NCBI RefSeq assembly: GCF_025965585.1
Contig: NZ_JAOPWR010000208.1
Span: forward strand, 1-64,000
DNA length: 64,000 nt
Source of the DNA: Pseudonocardia sp.
GTDB lineage: Bacteria; Actinomycetota; Actinomycetes; Mycobacteriales; Pseudonocardiaceae
Direction of reading: 5' to 3'
Positions 4,342-9,287 of the stretch are shown one piece after another (position 1 is the first letter of the stretch; every line of letters starts with the position of its first letter). The notes below the pieces were generated by a model. The model ran no database searches. It was not told where the DNA came from and saw only the letters and a list, made by a program, of their open reading frames with translations. The position numbers and the translations under genes were made by a program.

Positions 4342-4385
4342 GCGCCGGGATGTAGCGGCGGCGGCACTGGTCCATGATCGGCGGC

Positions 4386-5027
4386 ATGAGCGAGTCACTG
4401 GCGTCCGAGGCGGGCACGCTGGTCCTGTCCTACCTCGGCCTCCGCAAGGCCGTGGGGATCATCGGCATCACGCTGCCGTTCGTCCTACTCGTCGGCAAGC
4501 TGTTGGTCGACGGGGCCGGGCTGCCGGGGTCGATCAGCGCCTACTACTACACGGGCATGCGGAACGTGCTGGTCGGAGCGTTGTTCGCGATCGCGGTGTT
4601 CCTCATCTCGTACCGCTACGGCCCGCAGGACAACCGGGCGGGCACGCTCGCCGGCGTCATGGCGATCGGGGTGGCGCTCTTCCCGACATCGCCCGCGAAC
4701 CCGACGGCGCAGCAGCAGACGATCGGGATCGTGCACCTGGTCTGCGCCGGGGTCTTCTTCCTGACGCTCGCCTACTTCTCCTATTTCCTGTTCACCCGGA
4801 CCGACCCGGCCCGGCCCCCGACCCGGCGGAAGCTGCAGCGCAACGTCGTCTACCGGGTGTGCGGCGTGCTGATCGTGGTCTGCCTGGTGCTGGCGGTGCT
4901 GTCGGACAACCTGCTCGGCCGTGCGCTGGTCGACGCGCTGAACCCGGTGTTCTGGCTGGAGTCCGTGGCGATCGTGGCGTTCGGGGTGTCGTGGCTGGTC
5001 AAGGGCGAGACGATCCTGCGCGACTGA
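4386..5027 (+). CDS. Integral membrane protein, function unknown
   Basis: A 213-aa protein; the start at MSESLASEAG is preferred over the ATG 12 nt upstream, though neither has a strong ribosome binding site. About six hydrophobic segments are visible (for example GIIGITLPFVLLVGKLL, VLVGALFAIAVFLISY, IVHLVCAGVFFLTLAYFSY, VCGVLIVVCLVLAVL), with short polar loops and no extracellular domain. The family was not recognised with confidence. It follows the tail-chaperone-like gene by 44 bp and converges on a VOC remnant and a DinB-like gene. Confidence 0.75.
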   Translation: MSESLASEAGTLVLSYLGLRKAVGIIGITLPFVLLVGKLLVDGAGLPGSISAYYYTGMRNVLVGALFAIAVFLISYRYGPQDNRAGTLAGVMAIGVALFPTSPANPTAQQQTIGIVHLVCAGVFFLTLAYFSYFLFTRTDPARPPTRRKLQRNVVYRVCGVLIVVCLVLAVLSDNLLGRALVDALNPVFWLESVAIVAFGVSWLVKGETILRD

Positions 5028-5904: not shown

Positions 5905-6342
5905 CTAGGACCGCAGCGCGTCGACCACCTTCGTCACGCGCCGGGCGCGGGTCTCGATGGCCTTGGCGCCCTCCACCGACAGCACGTGGGCGCGCTGGTT
6001 GCTGTAGCTCATGGCGTCGAACGCCGCCCTGGTCGCCGGCTCGGCGTCCAGCGCTGCGGCCAGGTCGTCGGGGACGGCGACCTGGCGCGGCTGGTCGTCG
6101 AGCTCGACGTCGACATCCACCTCGTCGCCTGCCGCGACGCCGGCGTTCTTCCGCACCTCGGCGCTGACGGGGATCAGGTAGCGCCCGCCCATCGACGCGA
6201 TGGTGCTCGGATAGCTGTACCCGTTGATCGTCACGGTGACGGCGGGCCGCTTGCCCGGCCCGAGCCCGGTGACCACCTCTTCGGGGACCTCGATCCCCGT
6301 GGCGGTCTTGCGGGCGAGCTCGACGGTGGCGTGGAACATCAT
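5905..6342 (-). CDS. YdeI/OmpD-associated protein with DUF1905 domain
   Basis: The 145-aa reading starts at the double ATG (MMFHATVELARKTATGIEVP). The N-terminal half is a DUF1905 beta-barrel domain (VVTGLGPGKRPAVTVTINGY ... GGRYLIPVSAEVRKNAGVAAGDEVDV). The C-terminal half is the helical YdeI-type domain (VAVPDDLAAALDAEPATRAAFDAMSYSNQRAHV). Family members are small cytoplasmic proteins of unclear function, sometimes called bacteriocin-protection-like. The longer ORF upstream of MMFHA is not supported. Confidence 0.85.
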   Translation of the reverse strand: MMFHATVELARKTATGIEVPEEVVTGLGPGKRPAVTVTINGYSYPSTIASMGGRYLIPVSAEVRKNAGVAAGDEVDVDVELDDQPRQVAVPDDLAAALDAEPATRAAFDAMSYSNQRAHVLSVEGAKAIETRARRVTKVVDALRS

Positions 6343-6548
6343 GGCCCGGATTGTGCCGTCACGCCGTCGGCCGGCGCAGGGAGCGGCTCGTCGGCGCGCC
6401 GACGACCGGGCACTCGCCGAACATGATCTGCCCGCGCAGGACCGTCGGGTGACGGTCGAGCCGAACGCCGGCCCGCGGGACAACGTGTGCTCCTGAGTGG
6501 ACGCCGATGCGGCCGGGCCGCCGGAGTCCGGCGACCCGGCCGCCGGGC

Positions 6549-6734
6549 TCAGCCGGGCATCGGGGCGCTGGCGTTCCCGACGGGCGGGCTCGCGTCGCCG
6601 ACGGGCGGGCTCTGCTTACCGACGGTGGCGGCCGACGGCGTGGCGGCACCGGCCACGCCGGTGGACAGCGCCAGCCCGGCGCCGACCATCAGCACCACGG
6701 CGGCCTCGAGGACGATCTTCTTCTTCATGTTCAT
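6549..6734 (-). CDS. Small secreted peptide, translationally coupled to the polymerase gene
   Basis: A 61-aa protein starting MNMKKKIVLEAAVVLMVGAG with an AGGAGC ribosome site. Residues 1-30 are a typical Sec signal peptide (KKK, hydrophobic core, VAGA-A cleavage). The mature part is only about 30 residues and contains a repeated SPPVG(D/N)AS unit encoded by a 21-nt direct repeat. Its ATG overlaps the TGA of the upstream O-antigen-ligase-like gene (ATGA), so the two are probably co-translated. No family was recognised. It has no Cys and no sortase motif. Confidence 0.75.
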   Translation of the reverse strand: MNMKKKIVLEAAVVLMVGAGLALSTGVAGAATPSAATVGKQSPPVGDASPPVGNASAPMPG

Positions 6735-8080
6735 ACGTGCTCCTGTCGATCGGTGGTGAGGGAGGCGACGGCAAGGGTCATCAGCAGCGGCAGGACGGGA
6801 ACGTGCCAGAGGAAGTCGAACGCGCTGTGCACGGCGAACCCGGCCAGGATCGCGAGCGCGGCGGCGGCCTCGGGCGTCCGTCGGCGGACCGCGCCCGCCG
6901 CGAGCGCCACCGCACCGGCCAGCGCCAGCGCGAGGCCGACCACGCCCGTCTCGGTGGCGGTCTGGAGGAACTCGTCGTGCGTGTACTGCGCATGGACCGG
7001 CGCTCCCGTGTGGTCGACATAGTGCAGGTTCAGCAGGCCGGGCCCGACACCCGTCAGCGGTGACGACCAGAACTGCGCGGCGGTCACGCGCGTGAGGTCC
7101 GCGCGCTCGTCCGAGGTGGCGGTGAGCCGGGTCGTCGCGATCCCGGCGGCCGCGTGGCCGACGAGGCCGCGTCCCGTCGGCAGGACGAGGAGCAGCGCGA
7201 CGGCGAGCACCGCCACCAACGCCAGGTGCCGCAGCCGCAGGCGTCCGCCAACGACGAGCACGGCCGCGCCGACGACCAGCCCGGCCAGCGCCGGCAACGG
7301 CTGCGCGGCCCCGCCCACCGGCAGCGACGGCAGCAGCCCGACGAACGCCACCGCCACGGCCGGCAGCACCGGCATGAAGCGACGCCACCGCGCGACGTCA
7401 CGAACGAGGAAGGCGCAGACCACCGCGGCGACCACGAGGCCGAGCGCGCCCGCCCGGCTCATCGTCGTCGCCAGCCCGAGGAGCAGCACCGCGGCCAGTC
7501 CGTTCGTGAGCAGCCCCGGCGGCACGACGGTCACGGCCAGCACCAGTGCGACGACCAGGAACGCGGCGGTCACGTTGGCGTAGGTGATGGTCGACGACGC
7601 GCGCCACAGCCCGCTCGACGGCAGCGCCAGGGGCTCCAGGTGCAGCGCCACGCCCACCCAGCACGAGAGCGCCACCACGGCGGCCACCGCCAGCACGACG
7701 CTGAGCAGGATGCGCCGCGACTCCGCGAGCAGGCCCGACGCCGCCAGCGCCGACGCGGCCAGCCCGCAGGCCACCGCAGCGGTCGGCACGGCTGCGCCCA
7801 CGTCGGCGTGGATCAGCCCGCTGACCAGCGCCCACCCCGCGAAGAGCACCCAGCAGGCCGCCGCGATCGCCACGGCCCGCCCGACCGGCCTGCGCGTCAG
7901 GACACGGGCGACGGCCGCGACGGCCACCAGCACCAACACCGTCACGGCCTGGCGTCCGTAGAAACCGCCCTGTGCCAGCGCCGCGTAGGCGACGGCCGCA
8001 CCGAGACCCAGCACGACGACGCGGTCGGCGACGCCGGGCCGGGAGCCGGTCACGGGGAGTGCTGGTGCGATCACGATCAT
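6731..8080 (-). CDS. O-antigen ligase/polymerase-like (Wzy/WaaL) membrane protein
   Basis: A 449-aa protein with 11-12 predicted membrane segments throughout and a large polar loop near residues 310-370 containing RLTATSDERADLTRVTAAQF, WSSPLTGVGPGLL and HDEFLQTATETGVVGLAL. This is the H(D/N)xxL...ETGxxG signature of the Wzy_C/O-antigen ligase superfamily. Such proteins polymerise or attach glycans on the outer face of the membrane. No glycan biosynthesis genes are adjacent; the only partner is the tiny secreted peptide whose start overlaps its stop. Confidence 0.85.
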   Translation of the reverse strand: MIVIAPALPVTGSRPGVADRVVVLGLGAAVAYAALAQGGFYGRQAVTVLVLVAVAAVARVLTRRPVGRAVAIAAACWVLFAGWALVSGLIHADVGAAVPTAAVACGLAASALAASGLLAESRRILLSVVLAVAAVVALSCWVGVALHLEPLALPSSGLWRASSTITYANVTAAFLVVALVLAVTVVPPGLLTNGLAAVLLLGLATTMSRAGALGLVVAAVVCAFLVRDVARWRRFMPVLPAVAVAFVGLLPSLPVGGAAQPLPALAGLVVGAAVLVVGGRLRLRHLALVAVLAVALLLVLPTGRGLVGHAAAGIATTRLTATSDERADLTRVTAAQFWSSPLTGVGPGLLNLHYVDHTGAPVHAQYTHDEFLQTATETGVVGLALALAGAVALAAGAVRRRTPEAAAALAILAGFAVHSAFDFLWHVPVLPLLMTLAVASLTTDRQEHV

Positions 8081-8447: not shown

Positions 8448-9287
8448 TCACCCGCCGACAAGACGAGGCGTCCAGCGGCGTTCTGATACCTCCCCGCGCA
8501 CGAGACGTCGGGCTTCTTGGATGTTCGGGGGCGCCGGGACGTCGGGGAGCAGGTCCGTGACCGTGCGCAGGGTGCGCAACGCCACCGTGGTGCCGAGGTC
8601 CGTCGTGGGGGCGCCGGGAAGGCCGTAGAGGCGCCGTGCCCAGCGGGGGAGCGTGCCGAGCGACAACGTCGCGATCGCGGGGATCGCCAGCTTCACCCGC
8701 GACGGTGCGTCGCCGCGCGGGGCGAACAGGCTGCCGACCGCGGCCCGGGCCTCGTCGGTCAGCTTGAGCTCGGGCCGCACGCCGGCCAGGTACTCGCGCA
8801 TCTCCGCCCGCGACGACGGCGCGTCGTCCAGCCCGATCACCCGCGCGGCCCGGACGCTCTCGGCGAGGTAGCGCTCGACGCCGGCGTCGTCGAGGAGGCC
8901 GGAGCGGCGGGCGATCACGGCGTAGGAGTCGATCTCCGTGGCGTGCACCCACATCAGGTGCGACGGGTCGTCGAGGCGGAACGTGTACCCGGTGTCGGGG
9001 TCGTACCCGCGCAGCGACGCGTGCAGCCGCCGCACCCGGGACGCGACGCGCTCGACGTCGGCCGTCGCCCCGAACGTCCGCGTGCCGACGAACTCGACGG
9101 TGCGCTGGAACCGCGACCACGCCTTCTTCGGGTCGAACAGCGCGGAGTTCTGGTAGGTCCCCCGCATCACGCGCGGGTGCAGCGACTGCAGCAGCAGCGC
9201 GCGGAACCCGCCCACCCACATCACCGGTTCGAGATGGACCCGCCAGGTCACGGAATCCGGTCCGAACAAGCCGTGGTCCTGGGTCAT
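8448..9287 (-). CDS. Oxygenase MpaB family protein (DUF2236)
   Basis: A 279-aa protein from ATG MTQDHGLFGPDSVTWRVHLE. It contains the DUF2236/MpaB hallmarks: LLLQSLHPRVMRGTYQNSAL near residue 33, RFQRTVEFVGTRTFGATADV, and HLMWVHATEID further on. The family includes heme-dependent latex-clearing-protein relatives; its conserved His residues (HPRVM, WVHATE) are present and are likely heme or metal ligands. The substrate is unknown. The ORF-track start about 100 nt upstream runs into an MFS remnant. Confidence 0.85.
   Translation of the reverse strand: MTQDHGLFGPDSVTWRVHLEPVMWVGGFRALLLQSLHPRVMRGTYQNSALFDPKKAWSRFQRTVEFVGTRTFGATADVERVASRVRRLHASLRGYDPDTGYTFRLDDPSHLMWVHATEIDSYAVIARRSGLLDDAGVERYLAESVRAARVIGLDDAPSSRAEMREYLAGVRPELKLTDEARAAVGSLFAPRGDAPSRVKLAIPAIATLSLGTLPRWARRLYGLPGAPTTDLGTTVALRTLRTVTDLLPDVPAPPNIQEARRLVRGEVSERRWTPRLVGG

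Follow-up and report, generated by a model that had tools for sequence, protein, structure and literature searches.

A glycan-ligase-like membrane enzyme and its dedicated secreted partner in the Actinomycetota: a putative protein O-glycosylation pair

The window examined here, a stretch of 64,000 nucleotides from the soil actinobacterium Pseudonocardia sp. (contig NZ_JAOPWR010000208.1), carries a gene for an O-antigen-ligase-like membrane protein, and the stop codon of this gene shares bases with the start codon of a short secreted-peptide gene. This pairing defines a clade of ligase-like enzymes across the Actinomycetota, and its recurrence together with a conserved Ser-(x)-Pro tag suggests an undescribed protein-glycosylation system, one where each ligase would attach sugars to the partner encoded beside it. 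The initial annotation had proposed the peptide to be a partner or substrate of the ligase-like enzyme, for example a glycosylated one, or an accessory factor. The coupling behind this proposal is real, and a Ser-glycosylated substrate gains indirect backing from a tag that recurs in partners whose architectures are unrelated but is absent from unlinked paralogues; the accessory factor persists as a rival. The pairing is also far wider than that annotation had guessed.

The gene pair in the window

The features of the locus are as follows.

6731..8080, minus strand: Wzy_C/O-antigen-ligase-like membrane protein P0002, 449 aa (PF04932, AF2 fold, H368)
6549..6734, minus strand: secreted peptide P0001, 61 aa, putative dedicated acceptor (open reading frame, sequence, relatives beside the ligase, dN/dS)
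6731..6734, minus strand: start/stop overlap ATGA (sequence; peptide ATG at 6734-6732, ligase stop TGA)
6740..6744, minus strand: Shine-Dalgarno AGGAG of the peptide (sequence)
6645..6734, minus strand: predicted signal peptide, residues 1-30 (sequence; hydrophobic core score 2.54)
6552..6614, minus strand: mature tag repeats QSPPVGD-ASPPVGN-ASAPMPG, residues 41-61 (sequence, enrichment tests, heptads in other partners)
about 6511..6541, minus strand: G+C-rich hairpin, some 10 bases 3' of the peptide stop, without a U tract
8451-9287, minus strand: neighbouring MPAB/Lcp-type oxygenase
5908-6342, minus strand: neighbouring DUF1905/OmdA protein
4374-5027, plus strand: neighbouring membrane protein weakly like DUF7103 (below cut-off)

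Both reading frames and the ATGA overlap lie where the initial annotation had placed them, on the minus strand, and the predicted signal peptide and short, repeated mature part that it described are likewise apparent from the sequence. P0001 displays a basic start, a hydrophobic core and an AGA-A type cleavage site, placed by eye between GVAGA and ATPS, followed by ATPSAATVGKQSPPVGDASPPVGNASAPMPG; the mature chain comprises about 31 residues and has KQSPPVGDASPPVGNASAPMPG as its C-terminal end. Ser42, Ser49 and Ser56 follow one another at intervals of exactly seven residues and are the candidate acceptor sites. The 81 nucleotides from 6480 to 6560 fold with -50.6 kcal/mol (z -3.2), and the hairpin past the peptide stop possibly marks the end of the operon. 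Scans of the locus for a U-tract terminator and a sigma-70 promoter found neither, a result of low information since the DNA is so rich in G+C. The neighbours with Pfam matches have functions unrelated to the pair, and none of the oxygenase, the DUF1905/OmdA protein or the DUF7103-like protein is kept beside it in relatives.

Conservation of the pairing

The ligase or a close homologue is present in 11 of 62 Pseudonocardia genomes, and a secreted open reading frame is found at the ligase stop in all 11, two of these loci being identical in sequence. The majority share the 4-nt overlap, one partner starts just past the stop, and in two loci the ligase frame extends into the partner gene, which makes the overlap longer. 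Every peptide match with E < 0.001 across the 62 genomes, self excluded, adjoins a ligase, and no convincing orphan peptide, weaker matches included, was found in Pseudonocardia genomes lacking the ligase. The dN/dS ratios of close peptide pairs (0.08-0.55) indicate purifying selection, while the most diverged comparisons with the window peptide give 0.6-0.9, near saturation. A chance reading frame is ruled out by this selection together with the clade-wide conservation.

Profile searches of family, phylum and named genomes extended the clade to other Pseudonocardiaceae, Micromonosporaceae (Asanoa, Dactylosporangium), Acidimicrobiia and unclassified actinobacterial MAGs. The profile scores are bimodal: clade members exceed 190 bits, and no other Wzy_C protein rises above about 125. 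In all, 46 of 49 distinct clade members have a secreted open reading frame at the ligase stop or close to it, compared to 2 of 21 lower-scoring Wzy_C genes (Fisher 4.5e-12, uncorrected for kinship). The initial annotation had named the absence of the small gene beside homologous ligases as grounds for abandoning its idea; that absence was not found, since the coupling is real and deeply conserved. The three clade members counted as non-carriers are L096, L116 and L092, the last because its overlapping partner has extra membrane segments; L034, L060 and L092 were read by hand, having been missed by the automatic filter. The overlap measures 4 nt in 36 of the 49 members, L092 among them, and the counted partners of L085, L093 and L081 start 33-102 nt downstream. 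Neither of the two lower-scoring controls with a possible exported reading frame (L125 and L138) overlaps. In a tree built by a quick method, the coupled sequences occupy one side of a single branch, with a support of 69, or of 99 with the uncoupled L096 included.

Across flanks of up to 10 kb at 25 loci, the ligase and its partner are the sole widely common genes, and the pair is therefore considered to be stand-alone. No Wzx, Wzz or glycosyltransferase gene is conserved near the pair at these loci, nor was any lipid-linked glycan or glycan-synthesis gene cluster found linked to it, a result that counts against the partner being a glycan acceptor. Weaker Wzy_C genes in the same family (L106-L108) are followed by glycosyltransferase-like genes, and the second Wzy_C gene of this genome (L097/L099, G000:C456:19754-20191) adjoins glycosyltransferase-like and chain-length-kinase-like genes. 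This second copy is probably a polysaccharide polymerase, and its locus is a possible source of lipid-linked glycan.

Local rearrangements were also observed. The entire ligase-partner pair is duplicated in tandem at L104:7543-11400 (G291), and at L200 (G304) the partner alone is duplicated in tandem within the operon; all copies at both loci bear the tag. Outside the clade, a gene for a secreted protein lies downstream of the Wzy_C gene L105 (G185:C30), and this protein has a GDSYASGEG motif like that of SGNH hydrolases.

The ligase-like enzyme

P0002 matches PF04932 (Wzy_C) with E 3e-11 and 43.8 bits, above the curated cut-off of 31.7. The top PDB fold match of its AF2 model (pLDDT 93.2) is the O-antigen ligase WaaL (7tpg; E 5.6e-6, TM about 0.5); a sequence search of the PDB gave no match. 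H368 is invariant in 48 sequences, and an hhalign comparison with WaaL of E. coli K-12 aligned the HLHNEI region alone, placing H338 on H368 and E340 on E370 over 39 columns at low overall probability. Also invariant in these sequences are R209, R318, R326 and N169, the Arg residues being candidate counterparts of WaaL R215/R288, an equivalence outside the aligned region; as sequence features, these residues would be consistent with the WaaL/PglL active site (PMC3643930). The enzyme is a putative protein O-oligosaccharyltransferase, an assignment against which the missing PglL_A (PF15864) and Wzy_C_2 (IPR021797) domains are counted, neither having matched P0002 in a Pfam scan up to E 0.1. The ligases of L040 and L041 (P. 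kujensis and P. terrae) contain a repeated insertion of the RSGRRLPLATRSGRRLPL type, differing in length, ahead of the last membrane helices.

The modelled fold and the catalytic His motif are shared with WaaL, but the acceptor of WaaL is the lipid A-core. Actinomycetota have neither lipopolysaccharide nor a lipid A-core, and a WaaL-type acceptor is therefore unlikely.

Partner architectures

The 30-residue peptide described by the initial annotation is indeed the partner in the window, but it is only one form, as most relatives encode Ig-like proteins of about 145 aa or larger surface proteins. Partner types include the 31-residue peptides, proteins of Cys/Val-Pro repeats (L032, L034, L037) or Ser-Asp repeats (L033, L035), large proteins of 430-970 aa (L082, L085, L093) and a Pro-Thr-rich protein (L115), the commonest remaining type being a secreted protein of about 145 aa with a two-Cys Ig-like domain. 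The scanned partners matched no family in Pfam or NCBIfam. An AF2 model of the 145-aa type reveals a β-sandwich with a mean pLDDT of 85.5, exceeding 90 from about residue 40, and an N-terminus of low confidence; from this model, the tag probably sits in a flexible N-terminus ahead of a well-folded domain. A PDB fold search with this partner returned generic Ig-like matches only, with TM-scores of about 0.5 or less, and for that reason no function is read from the fold. The partners bear Sec-type signals with repeats or Ig-like domains and do not resemble type IV pilins.

Several partners have unusual compositions. Those of L033:2830-3320 and L035 (reverse strand), each from a different Pseudonocardia species, have long C-terminal tracts of GDSGSGDSGS (Ser-Asp/Gly) repeats, unequal in copy number, which resemble the Ser-Asp stalks of surface adhesins; in both, the ligase frame extends about 40 codons into the partner gene. 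The partners of L114 and L115, distant members of the clade, start with Tyr/Ser-rich segments (YTSRYASTHHSSHGG and SYYSVGYYYSYYQPY, respectively), and that of L115 runs on into a mucin-like PTPTP region. In the partner of L092, extra N-terminal membrane segments and RRRFFVTSGALLGGALLAPL, a Tat-like signal, are followed directly by ASSPPAPCDC and a Cys-rich tail.

The Ser-(x)-Pro tag and its loss in unlinked paralogues

Directly past the signal peptide, nearly all partners present a Ser with a Pro one or two residues later, exemplified by QSPPVGD, RFSPP, QFSPP, SAQSPS, QSESPP, QLSPP, SSPVGDESGPVGDD, NSAPVGDHSAPVGDH and DQSPVAGQSPVA. The Ser-x-Pro-Val-Gly heptads of the window peptide recur in the unrelated partners of L082 and L093. 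Among 26 non-redundant partners, Pro at +1 or +2 of Ser occurs more than twice as often as in shuffled segments and the reverse orders are not enriched (S.P 36 observed vs 13.9 shuffled; P.S 10 vs 13.9), nor is Thr-Pro (4 vs 5.7 expected). With a single protein taken per architecture (n=14), S-x-P is found 27 times vs 9.9 (0/5000 shuffles) and S[APGE]PV 9 times vs 0.4; the excess of SP by itself is smaller (16 vs 10.2; 154/5000 shuffles), and the share of proteins with any S.?P (13/14; 427/5000 shuffles) is not significant in so small a set. The same pattern is present in 24/26 partners as opposed to 10/42 secreted proteins of a Pseudonocardia genome (Fisher 3.4e-8), the latter being crudely predicted and including some false secreted calls. 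In the partners of L083, L094 and L114, the first part of the mature chain shows no clear S-(x)-P, and these count against a role of the tag as acceptor.

A natural control is provided by the Ig-like partner profile, which detects second copies at sites remote from the ligase gene in many Pseudonocardiaceae, several of them in genomes with no clade-type ligase match. These unlinked paralogues (L188-L199, L201, L204-L207) keep the signal peptide, the domain and the cysteines, and the Ser-Pro tag is absent. The invariant Ser is found in 31/31 linked and 0/17 unlinked Ig-like copies (Fisher 2.4e-13), a value that overstates independence because the unlinked copies form one clade and the contrast may reflect a single evolutionary event. 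The Ser tag accordingly goes with linkage to the ligase.

Proposed mechanism and known systems

Read from these sequence features, the pair is rather likely to consist of a protein O-oligosaccharyltransferase and its own acceptor, glycosylated at the tag Ser, similar to TfpO, PglS and PglL in their action on pilins but Gram-positive, with non-pilin acceptors and without PglL_A. Sequence and computation establish the layout of the operon, the export signal, the coupling across the clade, a WaaL-like fold model with the conserved His, and a Ser tag that accompanies ligase linkage. What we infer is the transfer of glycan to protein, together with the residues that accept it, its donor and its origin. 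The two-gene operon would encode a WaaL/PglL-type membrane glycan ligase and its dedicated acceptor, with the ligase translated first and the secreted protein next through translational coupling. The signal peptide would export the partner through Sec, and the ligase would then move a glycan from a polyprenyl-diphosphate carrier to Ser in the Ser-(x)-Pro stretch at the start of the mature chain, the modified residues of the window peptide being the three regularly spaced Ser. The glycan may come from an unlinked exopolysaccharide pathway.

The closest precedents are the pilin-dedicated O-oligosaccharyltransferases, encoded beside their acceptors, the type IV pilins of Gram-negative bacteria (PMC3643930, PMC12645811). 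TfpO/PilO, TfpM and PglS likewise place a Wzy_C/WaaL-like ligase beside a single acceptor modified at Ser, and PglL_A and Wzy_C_2 are also absent from TfpO and TfpM (PMC12645811); the defining adjacency of acceptor gene and ligase is matched here by a candidate acceptor at those same 46 clade ligases. TfpO, TfpM and PglS differ in belonging to Gram-negative hosts and in modifying type IV pilins C-terminally or internally, whereas the present hosts are Actinomycetota and the partner is a non-pilin protein with a tag at its mature N-terminus. PglL of Neisseria offers an analogy for the tag, acting on flexible Ser/Ala/Pro segments with a favourable Pro at +2, as in WPAAASAP, and modifying AniA at the SAP repeats GAAPAASAPAASAP (PMC4850263). 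Unlike the window enzyme, PglL has PglL_A and Wzy_C_2, and it is usually unlinked to its acceptors.

The initial annotation did not recognize the pairing as a described system, and no description of it was found in the open-access literature, subscription papers being mostly outside that scope; its general kind is nevertheless that already described for the Gram-negative pilins. Relative to those systems, the novelty would lie in hosts, acceptors, tag position and domain content. The O-oligosaccharyltransferases of the cited sources come from Gram-negative bacteria, and work on O-glycosylation in actinobacteria has dealt with mannosylation by protein O-mannosyltransferases (PMTs).

Alternative explanations

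The partner might instead be an accessory subunit that binds the ligase or polymerase through its N-terminal Ser-Pro segment and, unglycosylated, controls polymer length, activity or export. This is improbable, even though a binding interface would likewise yield tight coupling and a conserved tag, and one partner type combines a short tag (SAQSPS) with a well-conserved folded domain. Partner folds and sizes are wholly different, and some partners are mere tag repeats or Ser-rich stretches, which is what an acceptor should look like but would be surprising in a subunit; the polar residue that is conserved is, moreover, a Ser in the low-complexity Ser/Pro/Ala setting of known O-oligosaccharyltransferase acceptors.

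Modification of the tag by a PMT, with another role for the ligase, is considerably harder to credit. PMTs of actinobacteria (GT39) also O-glycosylate, and indeed prefer, Pro-rich segments of secreted proteins (PMC12757957), and PF02366 matches are present in this genome. They belong, however, to another enzyme family, with polyprenyl-phosphate mannose as donor, PMC12757957 describes no comparable gene coupling, and they would leave unexplained both the coupling to one ligase clade and the loss of the tag in unlinked paralogues; the lack of Thr-Pro enrichment also argues against them.

Equally far-fetched is an ordinary Wzy polymerase whose operon simply happens to retain the gene of an unrelated secreted protein, since, common as gene overlaps are in compact actinobacterial operons, and often as Wzy_C proteins are polysaccharide polymerases (probably including the second copy in this genome), the coupling is near-universal inside the clade and near-absent outside it, partners of different architecture bear the same tag, and the Wzy polymerases of actinobacterial exopolysaccharide clusters, members of the same Pfam family like that second copy, lie among the glycosyltransferase, Wzx and Wzz genes that are not conserved around this stand-alone pair.

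None of these alternatives accounts for the coupling, the common tag and its loss together as well as does glycosylation of a dedicated acceptor.

Significance

A bolder form of this proposal, offered tentatively and as less likely than not, sees in these ligases an undescribed Gram-positive branch of bacterial protein O-glycosylation: a clade of O-oligosaccharyltransferases that would use a Ser-(x)-Pro sequon at the N-terminus. One enzyme type would then have been joined to acceptors of separate origins, the smallest of them 31-residue peptides that would serve only to carry a long glycan, in effect a minimal secreted proteoglycan. If glycosylation of the partner is true, a separate en-bloc route of protein glycosylation would extend across the Actinomycetota. 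Its acceptor tag would be short and definable, and the tag-less unlinked paralogues would serve as a natural control already at hand. The pairs would likewise make up a family of compact enzyme/acceptor combinations for glycoengineering, and a directly testable function would be assigned to dozens of secreted proteins outside all known families.
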